Assembly (NCBI GenBank): GCA_024102725.1
Contig: JAGFJL010000102.1
Coordinates: forward strand, 1-64,000
From: Nitrococcus mobilis
GTDB taxonomy: Bacteria > Pseudomonadota > Gammaproteobacteria > Nitrococcales > Nitrococcaceae
Length of the DNA stretch: 64,000 nt
Direction of reading: 5' to 3'
In this document: positions 27,461-38,613 of the stretch, in pieces
Layout: each line of letters starts with the position of its first letter
Position numbering within the stretch: the stretch's first letter is position 1
The notes under the pieces: generated by a model
What the model saw: the letters and a program-made list of their open reading frames with translations, nothing else
Databases searched by the model: none
What the model was told of the DNA's origin: nothing
Translations under genes and position numbers: made by a program

Positions 27461-27517
27461 CTCTTTCCAGGATGGAAAATGCGCTCGCCTGCAAATCACA
27501 CCCGGTTGAAGTGGCCA

Positions 27518-28819
27518 CTAAAGCGTGTCCGCTGATGCGGTCTTGCATTTCGTGCACGCCGCAACGCGCGCCAGCAGCAACGCCCGTTCGCGCGCGTTGC
27601 GGGTGAGCGTCGCGGCGCGTTCGAACTCGGCGCGCGCCTCGGGCATCCGATCGAGCTTGGCCAGCAGGTCGCCGCGCACGCTGGGCAGCAGGTGATAGTG
27701 CGTCAATGCGGGGTCCTCAAGCAAGGCATCGACCAGTTCCAATCCCGCGGCCGGGCCAAAGGCCATACCGACCGCGACGGCGCGGTTGAGTGCGACGACC
27801 GGGGATGGCGCGATGGCCGCGAGCGCGTCGTAGAGTGCGGCGATGCGGGGCCAGTCGGTGTCACCAGCCGTTGCGGCGCGGGCATGGCAGGCCGCGATCG
27901 CGGCCTGCAGGGTGTAGGGGCCGAGCGCGCCGGGCAGGCGCTCAGCGCGCCCGAGCGCACTCAGACCGCGGCGGATCAACAGCCGGTCCCAGCGGGTACG
28001 GTCCTGGTCGAGCAACAGGATGGGTTCACCCTTCGCGTCCACGCGAGCAGGCAGGCGCGAGGCTTGGATTTCCATGAGGGCCGCCAGGCCGTGCACTTCG
28101 GACTCTTCGGGCATCAGCCCGGCCAATATCCGACCCAGTCGCAGCGCCTCATTGCACAGCTCGGGCCGCATCCAGCAATCGCCGGCGGTGGCGGCATAGC
28201 CCTCGTTGAAGATCAGATAGATGACCTCGAGCACGGAAGCGAGCCGTGGGGCCAATTCCGCGCCGCGCGGTACCTCGAAAGGCACGTGTGCCTCGGTCAG
28301 CGTGCGCTTGGCGCGCACGATGCGTTGCGCGATCGTCGGCTCGGACTTGAGATAGGCACGCGCGATCTCTTCAGTACTCAAGCCGCCGACGACCTTCAGT
28401 GTCAGGGCAGCGCGCGCATCCGCCGACAATACCGGGTGGCAGGCGGTGAATATCAGCCGCAGGACATCGTCGCCGATATCGTCGTCGAGCGCGACGTCGA
28501 TTTGCTCGGTGAACACCTGCTCGGCCAGAGCGTGGTGGGTATCCAACTCGCGGCTCAGTTCGACGTGCTTGATTGTGGCCATCGTTTTATGGCGCAAATG
28601 ATCGAGCGCGCGGCGTTTGGCTGCGGTCATCAGCCAGGCGCCGGGATTATCAGGGAGGCCCGCACCGGACCAGACCTCCAGAGCGGCGACCAGGGCATCC
28701 TGGGCGAAGTCCTCGGCCAGGGCCAGGTCGCTGGTCAGGCGGGCGACGCCGGCGACGACCCGAGCCGACTCGATACGCCAAATCGCTTCGATGTCCGCGG
28801 CAACTCCCGGGTTTTTCAT
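27518..28819 (-). CDS. ECF42-type RNA polymerase sigma factor
   Basis: 433-residue sigma factor. The N-terminal 170 residues hold region 2 (DLALAEDFAQDALVAALEVW, PGAWLMTAAKRRALDHLR) and region 4 (LTLKVVGGLSTEEIARAYLKSEPTIAQRIVRAKRTL). The remaining 250 residues form the long helical, TPR-like extension that defines the ECF42 group (VIYLIFNEGYAA, ELCNEALRLGRIL, RAVAVGMAFGP). ECF42 factors lack an anti-sigma gene and are usually encoded with DGPF/YCII proteins, as here. The start overlaps the stop of the VOC gene upstream (ATGA), placing it third in a unit transcribed from the promoter-like site at 29770-29796. Confidence 0.92.
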   Translation of the reverse strand: MKNPGVAADIEAIWRIESARVVAGVARLTSDLALAEDFAQDALVAALEVWSGAGLPDNPGAWLMTAAKRRALDHLRHKTMATIKHVELSRELDTHHALAEQVFTEQIDVALDDDIGDDVLRLIFTACHPVLSADARAALTLKVVGGLSTEEIARAYLKSEPTIAQRIVRAKRTLTEAHVPFEVPRGAELAPRLASVLEVIYLIFNEGYAATAGDCWMRPELCNEALRLGRILAGLMPEESEVHGLAALMEIQASRLPARVDAKGEPILLLDQDRTRWDRLLIRRGLSALGRAERLPGALGPYTLQAAIAACHARAATAGDTDWPRIAALYDALAAIAPSPVVALNRAVAVGMAFGPAAGLELVDALLEDPALTHYHLLPSVRGDLLAKLDRMPEARAEFERAATLTRNARERALLLARVAACTKCKTASADTL

Positions 28820-29223
28820 GGTGTGCTCGAGGGCGGTCCCGTCATGTGCACCAATTCCCAGATATGCCCGTCGAGATCCTGGAAACCATGGCCATACATG
28901 AAACCGTGATCCTGCGGATCATTGTAGATTGAACCGCCGGCCGCGGCCGCCTTGCGCACCATGGTGTCGACCGCCTCGCGGCTCTCCAGCGTGAGCGCCA
29001 CCAGCACCTCGGTGGCGGCACGCGCATCGCTCACCGGCAGCGGCGTGAACTCGGCGAAGCGCTCACGGGTGAGCAGCATCGCGAAGATGTTGTCGCCGAT
29101 GATCATGCAGGTCGCCGTATCGTCGGTATACTCGGGATTGAAGTGAAAGCCGAGCCGGGCAAAAAAGGCGATCGAAGCCTGCAGATCGGCGACCGGCAGG
29201 TTGACGAAGATCTGTCTGGCCAT
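28816..29223 (-). CDS. VOC family protein
   Basis: 135-residue VOC (glyoxalase/bleomycin resistance fold) protein. It opens IFVNLPVADLQASIAFFARLGF, has a middle AMLLTRERFAEFTP and closes with FQDLDGHIWELVHM, the typical last strand with a metal-ligand Glu. The frame is open further upstream, but ATG 29223 has a GGAG ribosome site and fits homologues. It lies between the PhnB-like gene (10 bases upstream) and the sigma factor (4-base overlap). Substrate unknown. Confidence 0.88.
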   Translation of the reverse strand: MARQIFVNLPVADLQASIAFFARLGFHFNPEYTDDTATCMIIGDNIFAMLLTRERFAEFTPLPVSDARAATEVLVALTLESREAVDTMVRKAAAAGGSIYNDPQDHGFMYGHGFQDLDGHIWELVHMTGPPSSTP

Positions 29224-29233
29224 AGTGATCTCC

Positions 29234-29704
29234 TCACCCCCCGGGGCAGGCGGTCTTAGCGGCGGCCTGGATCTCTTCCGGGCTGACATCGCGGATGTGG
29301 GTGGCCACCGACCACTCGTGGCCGAAGGGGTCGACGAGCTTGCCGTAGCGGTCGCCCCGGAACATCTCCTCAGCCGGCATGGTGACGCGGGCACCGGCCG
29401 CCACGGCCCGCGCGATCGTGGCGTCGACGTCGTCCACGTACAGATACATGGTGACCGGCGAGCCGTTCAGCGACAAGGGGCTGTGCATGCCCCAGTCCGG
29501 ATTCTCGTCGACCAGCATCAACACCGAATCACCGATGCGCAGATGGCCGTGCATGAGCTTGCCGTCCGGCCCCCGCACTCGGCCGCCCTCAGTGGCGCCG
29601 AAGGCTTTGATGTAAAAGTCCATCGCCGCGTTGGCGTCGCGACAGATCAAATGCGGGGTGAGGCTGTGCATTCCCGCGGGGATCGGCTTGACCTTGGTGT
29701 CCAT
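29234..29704 (-). CDS. PhnB-like VOC family protein
   Basis: 156-residue VOC protein of the PhnB/YdhR-like subgroup. Marks are MHSLTPHLICRDANAAMDFYIKAFGA, the GHLRIGDSVLMLVDE strand and FGDRYG-like FRGDRYGKLVDPFGHEWSVATH at the C-terminal half. Proteins of this subgroup often accompany ECF42 factors. It is the first gene of the unit PhnB-like/VOC/sigma. A TGTCGA-N17-CGTC site lies 66-92 bases upstream of the start codon. Confidence 0.88.
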   Translation of the reverse strand: MDTKVKPIPAGMHSLTPHLICRDANAAMDFYIKAFGATEGGRVRGPDGKLMHGHLRIGDSVLMLVDENPDWGMHSPLSLNGSPVTMYLYVDDVDATIARAVAAGARVTMPAEEMFRGDRYGKLVDPFGHEWSVATHIRDVSPEEIQAAAKTACPGG

Positions 29705-29769
29705 AGAACGCTCCTGTAAGTCGAGAATACTATGGGGGCATCACCCAATTGCTGCGGGCTTGTTTCAAC

Positions 29770-29796
29770 GACGCGCGGCGAGACGCAAAATCGACA
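29770..29796 (-). promoter_or_regulatory. Predicted ECF42 promoter P2
   Basis: On the minus strand TGTCGA (29796-29791), 17 bases, then CGTC (29773-29770). It matches the -35 TGTCGA and -10 CGTC elements I recall for ECF42 factors and has the same spacing as the two other copies in this locus. Sequence similarity to P1 continues downstream (AAGCCCGCA.CAAT). It would drive the unit that contains the sigma gene, implying autoregulation. Confidence 0.72.
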
Positions 29797-29804
29797 TCTG
29801 TCGC

Positions 29805-30224
29805 CTAGCATCGGACATCGCCCGGTTTTCGATAGGAAACCGACTCAGCGGCGCTATTCGGCTGGGTGAGTATTTCCAGAAGATGACCGTCCGAGTCTTG
29901 AAAATACAGGCCGCGACCGCCGTTATGCAGATAAATCTCAGCGGGCCGCTGCCGGCCGGGGTCGGCCCAGTACGGGAGGTGGCGATCGCCTAGGTGAGCG
30001 AAAATCTGATCGAAATCTTCCTCGGCGACCAGAAAAGCATAGTGCTGCATGGCGATATCGCCATCGCGTTCATAGAAATCGAGCGAGACGCCATTGTCGA
30101 GTCTCACCACCAGCATCGGACCGAAAGGCTCAAGCGATGGCAGTTGCAGAATTTCCGCGAGGAAGGCCGCGGAGCGGTGTTTGTCGCGGCACCAGACGAT
30201 CGTATGGTTGAGCTGCGCGGTCAT
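29805..30224 (-). CDS. VOC family protein
   Basis: 139-residue VOC protein: NHTIVWCRDKHRSAAFLAEIL, then LVVRLDNGVSLDFYE, HYAFLVAEEDFDQIFAHL and the closing YFQDSDGHLLEILTQ with a metal-ligand Glu. It resembles the glyoxalase-like members with a HTIV start. It is the last gene of the P3 unit, 18 bases after a YCII gene. The start ATG 30224 fits the family. Substrate unknown. Confidence 0.87.
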   Translation of the reverse strand: MTAQLNHTIVWCRDKHRSAAFLAEILQLPSLEPFGPMLVVRLDNGVSLDFYERDGDIAMQHYAFLVAEEDFDQIFAHLGDRHLPYWADPGRQRPAEIYLHNGGRGLYFQDSDGHLLEILTQPNSAAESVSYRKPGDVRC

Positions 30225-30242
30225 TGCGGGTATACACTTCGG

Positions 30243-30599
30243 TCAGCCGACGTAGCAGGGCGCGCATTCGCGCACCTCGACCGTGGCGAAACGCGCCGCC
30301 GGACACTGCCTGGCGATCGCGAGGGCCTCCGTCCGGTCGGCACAGTCGATCAGGTAGAAACCGCCGATCATTTCTTTCGACTCGGCGAACGGGCCGTCAC
30401 GCAATAGCGGCTTGCCGCCACGCTGTTGCAGTCTCGTACCGTGCTTGTCGGGGCGCAACGACCGGCTGGCCAACAGTTGGCCGCGCGCGGCGAGGTTTTC
30501 GCCGAAGCGGACCATCTCGTCATACAGCGCCCGACCTTCGTCCGCGCTGCGGGACTCACGATCCTCACGTGCCTCAACGATCAGCAGCAGATACTCCAT
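30243..30599 (-). CDS. YCII (DGPF) family protein
   Basis: 118-residue YCII-domain protein. It starts MEYLLLIVEAREDRESRS and carries the signature RDGPFAESKEMIGGFYLIDC, where the DGPF element names the family. YCII proteins have a ferredoxin-like fold with a conserved His/Asp pair, and their reaction is mostly unknown; the set linked to ECF42 is the commonest genomic companion of that sigma group. It sits 25 bases after a VOC gene on the same strand. Confidence 0.9.
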   Translation of the reverse strand: MEYLLLIVEAREDRESRSADEGRALYDEMVRFGENLAARGQLLASRSLRPDKHGTRLQQRGGKPLLRDGPFAESKEMIGGFYLIDCADRTEALAIARQCPAARFATVEVRECAPCYVG

Positions 30600-30624
30600 G
30601 GCGTTTCTCCGTAACGATTGCCGA

Positions 30625-30993
30625 TCATCGCATTGAATGCAAACCGATCAAGTTGCCTTCTGTGTCGTTGACGAGTGCGATATGACCGCACTCGCCGATG
30701 GAAAACTTTTCCCGCTGCACGCGGCCGCCGGCCTCGAGCGCACGCGCCGCCTCGACAGCGCAGTCTTCGCAGGCGAAATACACCAGCGTGTTGTTACCGC
30801 CGGGTTCTACGCCGTCCATCTTCACCAGTGCGCCAGCGGCCCCGACCAATTGCTGGTCCATCGGAAAGGCCCACAGCTCCAGCTCGGGTGAGTTCAGCTT
30901 CTCCAGCGTACGCTCGAAAACGGTTTCATAAAAACGCTTGGCGCGCGGCATATCCTGTACATAGATTTCGAACCAGATCGCGGGATTGGACAT
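30625..30993 (-). CDS. VOC family protein
   Basis: 122-residue VOC protein: AIWFEIYVQDMPRAKRFYETVF at the start, NNTLVYFACEDCAVEAARAL in the middle, FSIGECGHIALVNDTEGNLIGLHS at the end. The last block (GHIALV.DTEGN.IGLHS) is typical of the YaeR-like group. ATG 30993 is chosen over an upstream in-frame ATG at 31029, because homologues start at SNP.IWFEI. It lies 41 bases after the first YCII gene. Confidence 0.88.
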   Translation of the reverse strand: MSNPAIWFEIYVQDMPRAKRFYETVFERTLEKLNSPELELWAFPMDQQLVGAAGALVKMDGVEPGGNNTLVYFACEDCAVEAARALEAGGRVQREKFSIGECGHIALVNDTEGNLIGLHSMR

Positions 30994-31034
30994 TGAGATA
31001 GTCCTCAGATAAATATGCCAATTCTGCATCGCCG

Positions 31035-31457
31035 TCAGCTTGACGGCTCGCCGCCCATACCCAAGGACTTGAAGCGATCGACGGCCTCCGATTCGCCGAA
31101 GTCCTCGAGCTCGAACAAACGGCGGACCTCGATCTCGGCCTCGCCGCCCTCACCGGCCGGGTTCGGAAAACGCCGAACCCATTCGGCCGCCTCTGCGCGG
31201 CTTTTGACCTGGATGAGCGTATAGCCAGCGATAAGTTCCTTGGATTCAGTGAACGGGCCATCGATCACGGTGCGCTTCTCGCCCGCATAACGGACCCGCC
31301 AACCCGTCGAGCTAGGCTGCAGGCCCGAGCCATCGAGCAATACGCCGGCACCGGCCAGCGCCTCATGATAGTCCGCCATTTGGGCTAGCAGCGCCCCACT
31401 CGGCATGACGCCGGCCTCCGAGTCTTTGGTCGCCTTGACGATGATCATGTAACGCAT
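31035..31457 (-). CDS. YCII (DGPF) family protein
   Basis: 140-residue YCII-domain protein, starting MRYMIIVKATKDSEAGVMP, with the family signature VIDGPFTESKELIAGYTLIQV and a C-terminal extension (EIEVRRLFELEDFGES) common in the ECF-linked subgroup. It is the first gene after the promoter-like site at 31507-31533, so it probably heads the unit YCII-VOC-YCII-VOC (31457 down to 29805). Confidence 0.9.
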   Translation of the reverse strand: MRYMIIVKATKDSEAGVMPSGALLAQMADYHEALAGAGVLLDGSGLQPSSTGWRVRYAGEKRTVIDGPFTESKELIAGYTLIQVKSRAEAAEWVRRFPNPAGEGGEAEIEVRRLFELEDFGESEAVDRFKSLGMGGEPSS

Positions 31458-31506
31458 GCGGTTCTCCTCGAATCGGCCGGAACGAGTTGCCCGGCTTCAC
31501 TGTGGC

Positions 31507-34685: not shown

Positions 34686-34792
34686 TCCTAACCTGGGTGT
34701 CGAGACCGCCAACGCCCAAGCTAATCTGCCGTCGGAGCAGCCGAAGTCTGCGGAGGGAACTTTGTCTGCGCCAGCGGGTAAAGCGGTTAGGT
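34686..34792 (-). repeat. Possible attC-like site, degenerate
   Basis: The ends CCTAACC (34687-34693) and GGTTAGG (34785-34791) are exact inverted copies, read on the minus strand as ACCTAAC ... GTTAGGA. The span of 107 bases suits an attC, but the inner stem is not obvious. Confidence 0.4.
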
Positions 34793-34839
34793 TGATTGCT
34801 ATGTTTTAGACATTTATAGCCGCTTTTCGCAAACGTGCT

Positions 34840-34898
34840 GACAAACCGTTCAGATCGTGGCTCACTTCGCTCACACGATTTAACCTTATTCGTTAGGT
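34840..34898 (-). repeat. attC-like site of the HigBA cassette
   Basis: On the minus strand the site opens with R'' ACCTAAC overlapping the higA stop codon, then a stem GTTAAATCGTG pairing with CACGATCTGAAC around a TGAGCGAAGTGAGC loop, with one extra base on one arm as attC stems have. The closing box GTTTGTC is degenerate. Length is 59 bases, in the usual attC range. Confidence 0.6.
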
Positions 34899-35174
34899 GC
34901 CAATAGGCTCAACATGAACTTTAGGACGGTGAGATGAAAGCTCATACGCCGCCTGCAGATTAAGCCAGAACTCCGGCGAAGTTTTGAATGCCTCGGACAA
35001 TAACCAGGCGGTATTTGGGGAGATACCTCGTTTGCCACGAATTATTTCATTGACCCGTTGAAGCGGGATGCCGATATGCCCCGCCAATGCTTTTTGCGTG
35101 AGCCCCATGGGCTCCAAAAACTCTCTAAGCAGGATGATGCCAGGGTGCGTTGCAGTTCGATTTGTAGGAATCAT
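34893..35174 (-). CDS. higA: HigA family antitoxin
   Basis: 93-residue helix-turn-helix antitoxin of the HigA type. It shows the family start NRTATHPGIILLREFLEPMGLTQ, the HTH (LAGHIGIPLQRVNEIIRGKRGISPNTAWLLSEAF) and a C-terminal FWLNLQAAYEL. HigA binds and neutralises HigB and represses their promoter. It follows higB by 19 bases, the toxin-first order typical of higBA. The stop codon lies in the first box of an attC-like site. Confidence 0.93.
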   Translation of the reverse strand: MIPTNRTATHPGIILLREFLEPMGLTQKALAGHIGIPLQRVNEIIRGKRGISPNTAWLLSEAFKTSPEFWLNLQAAYELSSHRPKVHVEPIGT

Positions 35175-35193
35175 TTCATTACCTCAATCTTTA

Positions 35194-35487
35194 TCAGTCG
35201 TGGTAATTCACCACCGCCACTTTATGGGCGTTCGAGCCTTGCCACTGGAATACGATTCGCCACTGGGCATTAATACGAATGCTGTGATACCCAGCATAGT
35301 CCCCGCTTAATGCCTCGAGTCGGTTGCCCGGAGGTGACCGAAGATCATCCAGTGATTCAGCAGCGTTCAGGACATCGAGCTTATACAAAGCCGAATCCAA
35401 TATTTGAGATGGCAGTCGGCGAACTTTACTACTCGAAATACCGTGATATAAATCGGAGGTTGCACGGTTGCCAAAAGACTCGATCAT
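35194..35487 (-). CDS. higB: HigB family toxin (RelE-like)
   Basis: 97-residue toxin of the HigB/RelE group, which cuts mRNA at the ribosome. Marks are MIESFGNRATSDLYHG, LRSPPGNRLEALSGDYAGYHSIRINAQWRIVFQW and VAVVNYHD, the final His being part of the active-site region. Length is normal for an active toxin. It lies first in the pair, inside a cassette that starts at GTTAGGC (35544-35538). Toxin-antitoxin pairs are common stabilising cassettes in large integrons. Confidence 0.93.
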   Translation of the reverse strand: MIESFGNRATSDLYHGISSSKVRRLPSQILDSALYKLDVLNAAESLDDLRSPPGNRLEALSGDYAGYHSIRINAQWRIVFQWQGSNAHKVAVVNYHD

Positions 35488-35537
35488 GTGCCGATATTAA
35501 CGGATACACGGCATCCATGCAATAATACCCTCTTGGC

Positions 35538-35799
35538 GCCTAACGGGGTTGGCGATGAGCGGCCCCCGTGCGTCGGGGCTCAATGTCCCGGCGCATAGGG
35601 GGCTTGATCGCCAGTTCGGCGGCGCTTCGCGCCGGCACTGAATCGAACGAAGGGAGCACGAGATTAGGCATCAAGCCCGCCCTCCCGCTTGTTGGTGCCC
35701 CAGTCAGCCTTGATGCCTAATCTCGCGCTTCCCGCGCTCATCGCCAACTCCGTTCAGCGGCGTGGCAAAGCGGCACGCCGCTGCAACCAAATGTTCGGC
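35538..35799 (-). repeat. attC-like site of the VOC cassette with nested palindromes
   Basis: Minus strand: R'' GCCGAAC (35799-35793), a 10-bp stem CAGCGGCGTG/CACGCCGCTG, and a closing R' GTTAGGC (35544-35538). Between them are two more perfect inverted repeats: 14 bp (35548-35561 with 35735-35748) and 17 bp (35659-35675 with 35709-35725, CGAGATTAGGCATCAAG). At 262 bases the site is far longer than a usual attC of 57-140 bases. The inner arms may be a small inverted-repeat element inserted in an attC. Confidence 0.6.
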
Positions 35800-35802
35800 G
35801 TC

Positions 35803-36438
35803 TTATAAGTACTCGCCAAATAACAGCAGATTGCCATCGGGGTCGCGAATGACAAAGTCCTGTACTCCCCAAGGTTGTCGCTTCAGACTTTGCTGAAACT
35901 CCGCTCCTGCAGCCTTAAACTTGCCATAGAGATCCTTAACCCCCGATACGTCAATGTAGGCGGAAAGCAGGCTCTCTCGCTCCCGCATCTCGCCATCGAA
36001 GACCGTATCACAAACATATCTAAGATTCAGACGGATTCCGTCCCGTTCGACCTGGCCATAAAAGGGGGGCTCACCGTGAATAAACGAAATCTTGAATCCG
36101 AGCACGCCGGTATAAAATTCACATGAACGACGGATATCGGAAACGAAGAACTGGGGGTATACAGCAACAAGCTGCGAAGCTTCATGCTTTGATGATTTTC
36201 TGCTGGACATTTCACTGACTCCTGACTTCAGCGCCGCCCAGCACAAGAAACCTGATTCTTTGGCGATGACCTCCTGAGCCATGCTGAGTGTGAATTTCAT
36301 GGTCAAGAGCTCGACGTCGGTCAAATCTCGATAACGCGGAAATGCAGCCCTGATACGGCCACCGACAGAGTAGTTGTGCTCACGGTGCCAGCGAACCAAC
36401 TGCTTGGCCTGTTTCTTCAGGTTTTCTAGACTCGACAT
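35803..36438 (-). CDS. VOC protein with N-terminal helical domain
   Basis: 211-residue protein. Residues 1-70 are a helical domain (SSLENLKKQAKQLVRWHREHNYSVGGRIR then FTLSMAQEVIAKESGFLCWAALK) that I recall joined to VOC domains or alone in small cassette-type genes. Residues 90-211 are a VOC domain (FFVSDIRRSCEFYTGVLGFKI, VERDGIRLNLRYV, FVIRDPDGNLLLFGEY) of the bleomycin-resistance type. Whether it binds a drug is unknown. The cassette starts at GTTCGGC (36588-36582) and ends at GCCGAAC (35799-35793). Confidence 0.88.
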   Translation of the reverse strand: MSSLENLKKQAKQLVRWHREHNYSVGGRIRAAFPRYRDLTDVELLTMKFTLSMAQEVIAKESGFLCWAALKSGVSEMSSRKSSKHEASQLVAVYPQFFVSDIRRSCEFYTGVLGFKISFIHGEPPFYGQVERDGIRLNLRYVCDTVFDGEMRERESLLSAYIDVSGVKDLYGKFKAAGAEFQQSLKRQPWGVQDFVIRDPDGNLLLFGEYL

Positions 36439-36581
36439 GGGCGCAGGTGTACCTGATTGTTGTAGGTGGGCTTCGCCCTTCCGGCATGGTGCCGCTGCGC
36501 CCTACGGGGACGCCTGAATGATCGATCGCGCCCTCGCCGCTGTCAAGAGAGTGACGTGGAGACCGTGGCGCCAGCTTTGTC

Positions 36582-36670
36582 GCCGAACGCTGTGCATAAG
36601 CCGCGCGGGCCAAGGCGGCATGAGCAAAGAACATGCGGTCCCCGCGTCGGTCTCGATGCGCTGGTTATCC
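36582..36670 (-). repeat. attC-like site of the GNAT-A cassette
   Basis: Minus strand: R'' GGATAAC (36670-36664, overlapping the gene's stop codon), CCAGCGCATCGAGACCGACGCG, and a 3' part CGCGCGGCTTATGCACAGC then R' GTTCGGC (36588-36582). The 3' part closely resembles the classical CGCGGCTTA..TCA.GCGTT end of attC sites. Length is 89 bases. R' departs from GTTRRRY at one base. Confidence 0.6.
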
Positions 36671-37231
36671 GGTATGCGCCGAGGCCAAACTCTTCTCGAG
36701 ATGTAGGACAACATCATCGTTTAGAGTGATCTCTTGCCCTTCACGCACTGCAACCTCACCGACAGTGATACCGTTTCCGTCTGGGACATAGCCCAACTGG
36801 ACGTAAAGCCGCTGTGCCGCGTTGTACCCAGGGTGAAGGCCGACTGCGATGCCGATCCGGTCGGAATGTGTTTTCACGAGATCCTCTGCCGCCCTAACCA
36901 AGCCGGTTCCGATGCCCCGGCGGCGAAAGTTTGGCAGGACGTTGAGATCCTGCAGCTCTGAAACCCCGACAGCAGCGAGCGGCTCATACGACGGCTTCCA
37001 TTTCACGGTGATATAGCCTGCGAATTCGTTCTCCACGAATGCGACGAGAACTTCGCGAGCCCCTTCATTCTGCTCGGCGAGATAACGCTCGAAAAGGTCG
37101 CTCGATTTAGAGCGCCAGCCGATAGCCTCGAAACACGCTGCCATCACCTTTGTGTCGTCGGCGTGAATGCTGCGAATGTCGAGCTTAATGAGCCGCGTTG
37201 TCTTCACGCCGGATAACGCCTTGTTGGGCAT
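36665..37231 (-). CDS. GNAT family N-acetyltransferase
   Basis: 188-residue GNAT protein. The acetyl-CoA-binding loop is NVLPNFRRRGIGTGLVRAAE (motif A, about residues 97-116), followed by VGLHPGYNAAQRLYVQLGYVPDGNG (motif B). The substrate is unknown; related cassette proteins modify small molecules. The ATG at 37231 overlaps the previous stop (ATGA), but lies inside the cassette boundary box of its neighbour, so a start further in (near residues 11-16) is also possible. Confidence 0.87.
   Translation of the reverse strand: MPNKALSGVKTTRLIKLDIRSIHADDTKVMAACFEAIGWRSKSSDLFERYLAEQNEGAREVLVAFVENEFAGYITVKWKPSYEPLAAVGVSELQDLNVLPNFRRRGIGTGLVRAAEDLVKTHSDRIGIAVGLHPGYNAAQRLYVQLGYVPDGNGITVGEVAVREGQEITLNDDVVLHLEKSLASAHTG
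37211..37229 (-). repeat. Mini attC-like junction of the SnoaL cassette
   Basis: Minus strand GCCCAAC (37229-37223), five bases AAGGC, then GTTATCC (37217-37211). The two outer boxes of an attC are present but the whole stem between them is missing. GCCCAAC is the exact complement of the box that opens the same cassette (GTTGGGC at 37662-37656). Confidence 0.55.
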
Positions 37232-37635
37232 CAGTCGTTATCTGTTGGCGCAGGAGCCAACATGTTGGCATCACGCGCAAGAATCCATTTGCCATTCTGC
37301 TTCTTGAAAATCGTCAACGTATGCCCCGCTCGGGTTGTTGGTTGAGAGCCGGCGGGCAGAGTGGCCACGACTTTCAACTTTTGCCACATGAAGGCCCAGT
37401 CACCGAGAATCTTGATCTCTTGAATCTCGCTTGACCCATCAAATTTCGGCGCGCCTGCACCAGTTTGAGCCCGTGCAGCAGCGGCAAAGTCGTCCTTTCG
37501 CATGGGCGGCTGGCCGGTCACGAGGAAGACGACATCATCTGCCATCAATGAGAGCACTGTTTCGACATCGCCAGATTTCGTGGCAGTCATCCAAGTGGAC
37601 ACGAGCTGCCGGATCTGTTCTTCATCGCTTTGCAT
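37231..37635 (-). CDS. SnoaL-like (SgcJ/EcaC family) protein
   Basis: 134-residue protein with the cystatin-like SnoaL/NTF2 fold: DEEQIRQLVSTWMTATKSGDVETVLSLMADDVVFLVTG, the KILGDWAFMWQKLKVVA strands and GHTLTIFKKQNGKWILARDANML. SgcJ/EcaC family proteins are often associated with oxidoreductase or lyase activity but most are uncharacterised. ATG 37635 is chosen because homologues begin about four residues before EEQIRQL; the frame is open to 37674 across an attC box. It is a cassette in the array. Confidence 0.87.
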   Translation of the reverse strand: MQSDEEQIRQLVSTWMTATKSGDVETVLSLMADDVVFLVTGQPPMRKDDFAAAARAQTGAGAPKFDGSSEIQEIKILGDWAFMWQKLKVVATLPAGSQPTTRAGHTLTIFKKQNGKWILARDANMLAPAPTDND

Positions 37636-37655
37636 GTGAACTCCTCGGTCTTGAT

Positions 37656-37749
37656 GCCCAACGCCTCGCTTCACCGGGGCGGCGAAGCCGATCTCCGGTA
37701 CAAGCGTTTGTTCGATAGCACTGCCGCCGACACAGACTCGTTGTTGAAT
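37656..37749 (-). repeat. attC-like site of the GNAT-B cassette
   Basis: Minus strand: R'' ATTCAAC (37749-37743), GGCGGC...GCCGCC partial stem, GTGAAGCGAGGC and R' GTTGGGC (37662-37656). Both outer boxes fit the consensus RYYYAAC and GTTRRRY. Length is 94 bases. Confidence 0.65.
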
Positions 37750-37752
37750 TAC

Positions 37753-38198
37753 TCATTGGGCGCCATGAAATTGGCGTACGCGCTTTTGTAAAAAGTATCG
37801 CGTATGGCCCGTCGGAAAGCTCTCCAAAGCCCCAAACACTTGATAACCCAACTTTTGATAAAAGCCGAGCGCCTGTGGAAATCATAGGTGTCCACATAGG
37901 CGTGCTGACAACCTCGCTTGACCGCCTCGTGCTCAGCACGCGCCACAAGTTCAGTGCCATAGCCCTGACCCCGAAGTAGCTCCGCCACCCACAATTGACT
38001 TATAAACAGCCAACCCCAATGGGTATAACCGATTAAGCCCCCCACTATTTCGCCTTGATCATTCCGAATGAAAGCCGCCAAGCGTTGCCAGTTTTCTCTC
38101 TCCACTTGCGTGTCATTGTAGGAGACCAAACTTCGGATCAGAAGGCGGATGTCTGCCTCGGAAGGCGGATCATCCATCGAAATTTTATAGTCGGCCAT
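37753..38198 (-). pseudogene. Frameshifted GNAT acetyltransferase gene
   Basis: The first 110 residues are a normal GNAT: ERENWQRLAAFIRND, GGLIGYTHWGWLFISQLWV and LLRGQGYGTELVARAEHEA. After VDTYDF (near 37876) the frame changes. The other frame continues the domain as QALGFYQKLGYQVFGALESF and ends RYFLQKRVRQFHGAQ with a stop at 37753. Two extra bases (CA within TTCCACAGG) explain the shift. Read without correction, the product is 149 residues (stop at 37749) with a wrong C-terminus lacking motif B, so activity is unlikely. Confidence 0.75.
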
Positions 38199-38613
38199 CT
38201 CCTGTTCCTTTTGTTCGTGTGCCTAAATCTTGTTGGGTGAGCTTCGCTCAAGAAGTGACGGCAGTAATTCTGCGTGAGCCAGCGAACGGAGATGGCGACC
38301 CCACATACGTCCAGTTGTCCGCGGACAGGTGTGCCCGATATTCTTGATCTATCCTGTCTATGGTATTGAGGCACATGGAGATGTGTCTGGCAACTTACAC
38401 AATAACCACGGCTGGAGAACGAACAGGCAGGAACAGACTTTTTTTGTTGAACCAAGTTTGCGCTGGCCTTCGGTCCAAGCAGTGCTGCATTCGAGCTGAA
38501 ACAAGACGAGCGCCATTACCGCTTCGTCTGGCAAAAGCTCATAGCGCTGGACCTTCTTCCAATGGCTGTCGGGGCACTCCACCGTCAGGAGATCGGGCGC
38601 GGCGAGCGGTTGT
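38199..38613. other. Gap at the start of the cassette array
   Basis: 415 bases. Near 38222-38239 the minus strand reads ACCCAAC, a few bases, then TTTAGGC, similar in layout to the mini attC at 37211-37229 and a possible first boundary. No integrase or attI is visible. A minus-strand frame starting at 38582 (MECPDSHWKKVQRYELLPDE) matches nothing I know. Confidence 0.35.

Follow-up and report, generated by a model that had tools for sequence, protein, structure and literature searches.

A palindromic gene-less cassette as the probable basis of a 262-base attC-like site in Nitrococcus

Cassettes that carry no gene and occur in many copies have been described from Vibrio, where Boucher and colleagues (PMC1382264, in the available part of that report) found paralogous non-coding cassettes with as many as 45 copies per array (V. 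vulnificus CMCP6) and proposed selfish or regulatory roles for them. Whether such multi-copy cassettes are selfish or useful has been a question since that 2006 report. Gene-less Vibrio cassettes often carry promoters, according to excerpts of PMC11014356, and attC sites are given as 57–142 nt long, with spacer and extrahelical bases, in the accessible text of PMC2727003. The 64,000-nt stretch analysed here, called the window below, comes from a Nitrococcus MAG with a genome of 3.25 Mb, in which it is contig C79; those of its closest relatives that gave matches belong to the same genus. A first-pass annotation marked positions 35538–35799 as one attC-like site with nested perfect palindromes and offered two readings, an attC with a MITE-like insertion or a new class of long attC. 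The relatedness to attC and the presence of a repeated element inside the segment stand, but neither reading is the best fit. We consider it probable that the segment has at its core a small integron cassette without a gene, about 220–236 bp when whole, that is moved by Nitrococcus integrases via an 83-nt attC of its own and that in the window is joined to the attC of a neighbour.

The Nitrococcus unit is a palindromic variant of the multi-copy gene-less cassettes known from Vibrio. With those cassettes, as portrayed in the part of PMC1382264 at hand, it shares the lack of an ORF, an attC of its own, many near-identical copies in arrays, limitation to one genus and 80–90% identity; it differs from them in belonging to another genus, in alternating with gene cassettes and in having one copy fused to a neighbour. 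The foldback start discussed below is a feature of the Nitrococcus unit, the Vibrio families being compared by their description in that text only. Like the Vibrionaceae promoter cassettes, as PMC11014356 presents them in excerpt, the unit has no annotated gene or ORF over 210 bp; unlike them, it is strongly palindromic and yields no promoter in a consensus scan. Its longest ORF wholly inside 35538–35758 has 50 aa including the start (153 bp with the stop codon), at the 150-bp limit of PMC1382264 and below the 210-bp limit of PMC11014356 as these are given in the parts seen, and we accordingly call the unit gene-less. We found no report of Nitrococcus gene-less cassettes in the open-access literature searched, and none of foldback cassette starts. 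The family described here lies outside Vibrio and comprises at least two sequence types, and its palindromic start provides a concrete, testable structural hypothesis.

Both boxes that delimit the segment are present on the minus strand (GCCGAAC at 35793–35799 and GTTAGGC at 35538–35544), as are the three inverted repeats between them. The 17-bp perfect repeat (35659–35675/35709–35725) is embedded in 31-nt arms with 84% complementarity, the 14-bp repeat (35548–35561/35735–35748) in 25-nt arms with 88% complementarity, and the 10-bp repeat lies at 35755–35764/35774–35783. The 17-bp pair does lie inside the 14-bp pair; the 10-bp repeat is found outside it, as the stem belonging to another, short attC-like site. 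The symmetric placing of the 17-bp pair was an error, since by coordinates 97 nt flank it on one side and 9 nt on the other. The 301-nt region 35520–35820 folds at -94.8 kcal/mol (z -8.3), whereas 100 dinucleotide shuffles gave -61.8 +/- 4.0 and none of them folded equally well; the inverted repeats are genuine and far beyond chance. We read the nested palindromes as what are probably three things: a 10-bp stem in the attC of a glyoxalase cassette, an internal hairpin whose 20–31-nt stem contains the 17 bp, and a pair of 25-nt outer arms that contain the 14 bp.

The genes around the segment are read on the minus strand, and their products are of the kinds that cassettes typically carry. Upstream of it lies a gene for a glyoxalase/bleomycin-resistance superfamily protein (35803–36438; Pfam PF00903), and downstream lie a gene for a HigB-like toxin of a type II toxin–antitoxin pair (35194–35487; Pfam PF05015) and one for a helix–turn–helix protein (34893–35174; Pfam PF01381) that is HigA-like antitoxin by its position; two GNAT acetyltransferases and a SnoaL/DUF4440 protein are also encoded here. 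A canonical 61-nt attC-like site at 37656–37716 on the minus strand separates the acetyltransferase and SnoaL/DUF4440 cassettes. Another canonical attC-like site (34840–34898) is on the plus strand, opposite to the cassettes and directly after the HigA-like gene, and a copy of it with 84% identity is found on contig C182 of genome G004, about 460 bp beyond intI fragments. No integron integrase was found within the window; a fragment of intI is on another contig of the same genome, and the gene is complete in N. mobilis (G001) and in G003. The cassette-like genes at 34690–38570, between a DUF6632 gene and bioH, were not found beside bioH in G001, G004 or G003, the last of which has other genes there, and this comparison yielded no clean empty site for the window copy.

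The segment is not unique and has no ORF longer than 50 aa wholly inside it, so neither of the refuting outcomes named in the first-pass annotation occurred; BLAST finds it in multiple copies in Nitrococcus genomes. Many of these are in N. mobilis at 84–92% identity; BLAST places occur in G001 and G004 and modules in G002 and G003, the matches in G002, G003 and G004 being in pieces. The copies that were checked lie mostly within cassette arrays. A covariance model of the last 83 nt of the unit (R1) identifies 22 sites on the sense strand, opposite-strand echoes being left out of this count, in all five Nitrococcus genomes (1 in the window genome, 11 in G001, 1 in G002, 2 in G003 and 7 in G004) and none in the other 49 of the 54 genomes of the order. 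Fifteen of these sites possess the outer 5' arm (AACGGAGTTGGCGATGAGCG; 35735–35754 in the window, minus strand), an inverted copy of the right half of the attC: one in the window, nine in G001, one in G002 and four in G004. The stretch 35538–35758 is thus one of 15 copies of a unit that occurs in four of the five Nitrococcus genomes, and with nine outer-arm copies in a single genome the unit constitutes a multi-copy (paralogous) family. Two sequence types can be told apart by the right arm (CGCTCATCGCC or CGCATATCGCT), in addition to two mixed copies, N410 and G4C3, whose outer arms do not match each other; type names, unit nicknames and the term hairpin A are labels coined for the present analysis. 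An exact 17-mer scan of the genome contigs returned 13 stretches, five in N. mobilis and one in a Nitrococcus MAG, and the other seven, which share just 17–22 bp with the segment, are taken as chance. No match to the segment was found in the plasmid collection or, in a scan by one exact 17-mer, in the viral collection.

The boundaries of the unit suggest how it moves. On the 3' side the copies stop at G|TT within the R' box, after which four bases vary: among eight type 1 copies, the mean pairwise difference is 0.036 in the 20 bases through GTT vs 0.49 in the following four, which read RRRY in most copies (G4C3, N489 and G3C69 are among the exceptions). On the 5' side, a canonical short attC lies directly upstream of 8 of 12 testable units, and its R' box supplies the first bases of the unit; an example is GCCCAAC-AAAGC-GCTgCAGCCG...CGGCTGAGC-TTGAGC-G|TTCGGT, with 170 nt upstream being read. 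These R' boxes are GTTC, GTAC or GCTC rather than GTTR. The upstream scan, which required an R'' box and a bulged L stem with a score of at least 6 and was designed after the pattern had been noticed, detected such a site at 8 of 12 units and at 7 of the 266 other GTTCRG positions that served as controls (Fisher p 4e-9); one of the seven control matches is a further attC that ends in GTTCGG and runs into an assembly gap. The scan left out the window copy, which has no R' box at this end, and N0 and G4C378, which lie at contig ends. No attC was found upstream of three of the 12 testable units (N408, N489 and G4C11), and a partial one precedes G2C382. G|TT therefore borders the unit on both sides, on the 3' side in the aligned copies and on the 5' side in 8 of 12 testable ones, the window's own 5' boundary being missing. 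Seven cassettes with a readable start and end measure 220–236 bp. We infer that IntI moved the copies; the boundaries suggest that it would act on the 83-nt site in folded form and recombine it at G|TT, in the way usual for cassettes.

The surroundings of the copies are consistent with this. Several units stand between typical cassette genes, and one is beside the full intI of G001; the intI of N. mobilis is mentioned in PMC2426708 and PMC3108266, as far as their available text goes. In N. mobilis, the first cassette next to intI codes for an HNH endonuclease, and its attC is followed by a unit interrupted by an IS. Unit N2849 comes after the second cassette, and the third, Mrr-like cassette has an attC that runs into an assembly gap. 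Elsewhere, units come after a TIR-domain cassette, a TSCPD-domain gene and an AAA_15 ATPase cassette. Other cassettes at the same places have a canonical attC with no unit (L020:8620-8754 and L023:954-1025); a first, looser attC scan (cut-off 11) returned few sites and was used just to point to candidates. Some model sites have no array context or no outer arm. The site on contig C69 of G003 adjoins a gene that, from reading its translation, we take to be hypB.

The last 83 nt of the unit (35538–35620, minus strand) resemble an attC in most respects. They match model R1 with 95.3 bits, and their order is an R'' box (GCCGAAC, 35614–35620), an L'' with an extrahelical base, a terminal hairpin, L' and an R' box (GTTAGGC, 35538–35544), of which the bases TTAGGC are part of the next cassette. 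The boxes conform to the inverted pair of GTTRRRY and a sequence ending in AAC, in the window and in the 12-row alignment A1, and the extrahelical base is on the R''–L'' arm of the L''/L' stem (column 15 of A1 is unpaired and helix 2 covaries). In A1, both partners vary in 9 of 32 pairs, a count reached in 0 of 500 shuffles; with 10 rows the count is 7 of 32. The bottom strand folds better than the top strand in all 14 cores compared, which represent 14 of the 15 outer-arm units, the IS-split copy being left out. The site thus has the R''–L''–L'–R' layout, the extrahelical base on the R''–L'' arm and the bottom-strand fold of the canonical attC described in the part of PMC2727003 available, but differs from it in that the spacer is unpaired on one side and an alternative 5' arm competes for the right half. 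We use the term attC-like given that the central spacer is 0 nt long on the R''–L'' side and 5–6 nt long on the L'–R' side, and so is unpaired on one arm only. The right half (L', spacer and GTT; 35542–35561) is predicted to pair either with the L'' of this site or with the outer 5' arm. We predict that this attC-like site is the unit's own attC, the evidence for recombination by IntI being the variable bases after G|TT.

The window copy appears to be a unit fused to the tail of the neighbouring glyoxalase cassette. The attC-like site of that cassette (35752–35799, minus strand) has the layout of the intact attC upstream of eight relatives, with R'' GCCGAAC at 35793–35799, a spacer ATTTG, L'' GTTgCAGCGGCGTG at 35774–35787 and L' CACGCCGCTGAAC at 35752–35764; it has no R' box and runs directly into the unit. 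The seven bases GCTGAAC (35752–35758) are at once the last seven of the glyoxalase L' and the R''-like box of the unit. The R' box of the upstream attC and the start hairpin of the unit are present in relatives and missing here; judging from this single copy, both were presumably lost in a short deletion, for which the GCTGAAC match between the glyoxalase L' and the unit offers a possible route. What remains is a 5'-truncated type 1 unit (35544–35758, minus strand) with its 5' end at 35758 and its 3' end at 35544, the first base (G) of the R' box, as delimited by the repeat copies, alignment A2 and the G|TT boundary. The 262-bp composite is therefore an attC remnant plus a truncated unit with a single R' box (35538–35544), and given that the glyoxalase cassette and the unit share this box, they would be excised together. 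GTTGGCG (35742–35748) was considered as the R' box of the glyoxalase attC and rejected as a general solution because type 2 units have no GTT at that place. We are cautious about giant attC sites in general, as an attC adjoining a gene-less cassette, or a fusion of the two, can mimic one, and attC models tuned to 57–142 nt may call just part of such pairs or fusions.

A single giant attC was the reading we held first, and we demoted it once the flanks upstream of the copies showed canonical attC sites. It would pair an R'' box at 35752–35758 (or 35793–35799) with the R' box at 35538–35544, with a branched terminal structure between them, and would make the whole 221–262 nt the recombination site. 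Three observations favour it. For the integrated unit, folds that include the outer stem are more stable than those without it by about 5–25 kcal/mol, on both strands and in each of the 14 units folded; no stretch of the unit is more conserved than the outer 5' arm (mean pairwise difference 0.013 in eight type 1 units); and a permutation test on the 15 outer-arm units among the 22 sites finds that own arms fit each other better than permuted ones (p 0.0005; p 0.002 with 11 distinct units). However, the permutation result derives largely from the split between types 1 and 2 (type 2 alone, in n=4 units, gives p 0.09), and none of the 20 outer-stem pairs has a compensatory change across 10 type 1 and mixed units, with 500 of 500 shuffles as high; alignment A2 holds 10 of the 15 outer-arm units and A3 holds four, the IS-split copy being in neither. 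Matched changes in the outer arms do occur in N489 and G4C409b. The spacer would be fully paired with no extrahelical base, in contrast to the attC of 57–142 nt in PMC2727003, as that source describes them in the portion available. Moreover, seven of the 22 model sites have no outer arm, and six of these have readable flanks, the seventh lying at a contig edge. Given also that 8 of 12 testable units already have a canonical attC upstream and that an attC-like site occupies the last 83 nt, we regard the giant attC as improbable, and the long-attC class suggested by the first-pass annotation does not hold in its simple form. Still less probable, and in our judgement very unlikely, is a MITE-like transposon moved by a transposase via terminal inverted repeats: the unit is indeed small, non-coding and multi-copy, with near-perfect terminal inverted repeats, but by eye no target-site duplication is seen in the flanks of the copies, the ends coincide with R boxes and with G|TT, the integron crossover points, and the right end is itself attC-like. 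The G|TT at the 3' end and an upstream attC whose R' box begins the unit are the features by which we assign it to cassettes, as opposed to giant attC sites or MITEs flanked by duplications.

Given that the unit encodes no protein, it would spread either because it is recombined well, as a selfish element, or because it helps the array. The latter possibility, a gene-less cassette kept for a service such as a promoter, small RNA, terminator or insulator for its neighbours, seems to us doubtful but worth considering. The internal hairpin A (5' arm 35709–35728; 3' arm 35656–35675, which includes the 17-bp repeat; both on the minus strand and identified by the inverted repeat and the alignment) speaks for it, with conserved arms (mean pairwise difference 0.025) around a fast-changing loop (0.253) and weak covariation, two pairs, for which 8 of 500 shuffles were as high in covariation score and 144 of 500 in pairs changed on both sides. 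Against it, there is no sigma-70-like promoter in the unit by consensus scan, no intrinsic terminator within 35480–35860 and no Rfam family in the window; the promoter argument is a weak one, because such promoters are not predictable in silico according to the text seen of PMC11014356. Our preference is for a selfish mini-cassette that lives off the integrase, and this is the least certain step of our account.

The proposed gene-less cassette begins with an inverted copy of the right half of its own attC. In the circle predicted to form on excision, the two would therefore make up a long, near-perfect palindrome that spans the crossover point. The outer arms would join there in a hairpin of 26–29 bp per arm. 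In the seven units with a readable start, which were used for the junction analyses, the predicted hairpin has -33 to -44 kcal/mol in six cassettes and -20.9 in the seventh, compared with shuffle means of -10 to -15. In N2587 the hairpin has no mismatch over 29 bp per arm; it has few mismatches in N2591, N2849, G4C409b and N489 and is weaker in G4C3 and G2C382. The longest exact match between the right end of the attC and the cassette start is 18–20 in five of the seven units and 10 and 5 in the other two; in six of six gene cassettes of the same arrays it is 0–5. The foldback may thus affect the excised circle, and we tentatively speculate, with less confidence than in the cassette itself, that it is a working part: in the circle, the right half of the attC would pair with the first ~45 bases instead of with R''–L'', and the resulting strand-symmetric hairpin would act on reintegration, by locking or redirecting it, or would make extrusion from double-stranded DNA easier, the mini-cassette spreading as a parasite of the integrase. 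If true, this would be a kind of integron satellite that has no description in the literature consulted.

Several minor observations concern the same arrays. Three assembly gaps of N. mobilis (L020:12242-12341, L022:8495-8594 and L021:7155-8772) lie inside or directly after unit-start hairpins, as if the palindrome had stopped sequencing or assembly there. In one unit, the terminal hairpin loop is occupied by an IS (L021:10117-11520) whose transposase is of the Tn5 type (Pfam: Dimer_Tnp_Tn5); this IS is flanked on both sides by GGGCTCAATGC. In the window, a row of small genes on the minus strand at 27500–31500 encodes enzymes of uncertain role and a sigma factor, several of the products being VOC-like or YCII-like by reading of the ORF translations. 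Finally, a stretch before intI (L017:690-730 and L021:12490-12540, the region of TACTTGTAG / GCAAGGCGTC) is common to the window's genome and N. mobilis and is a candidate attI.
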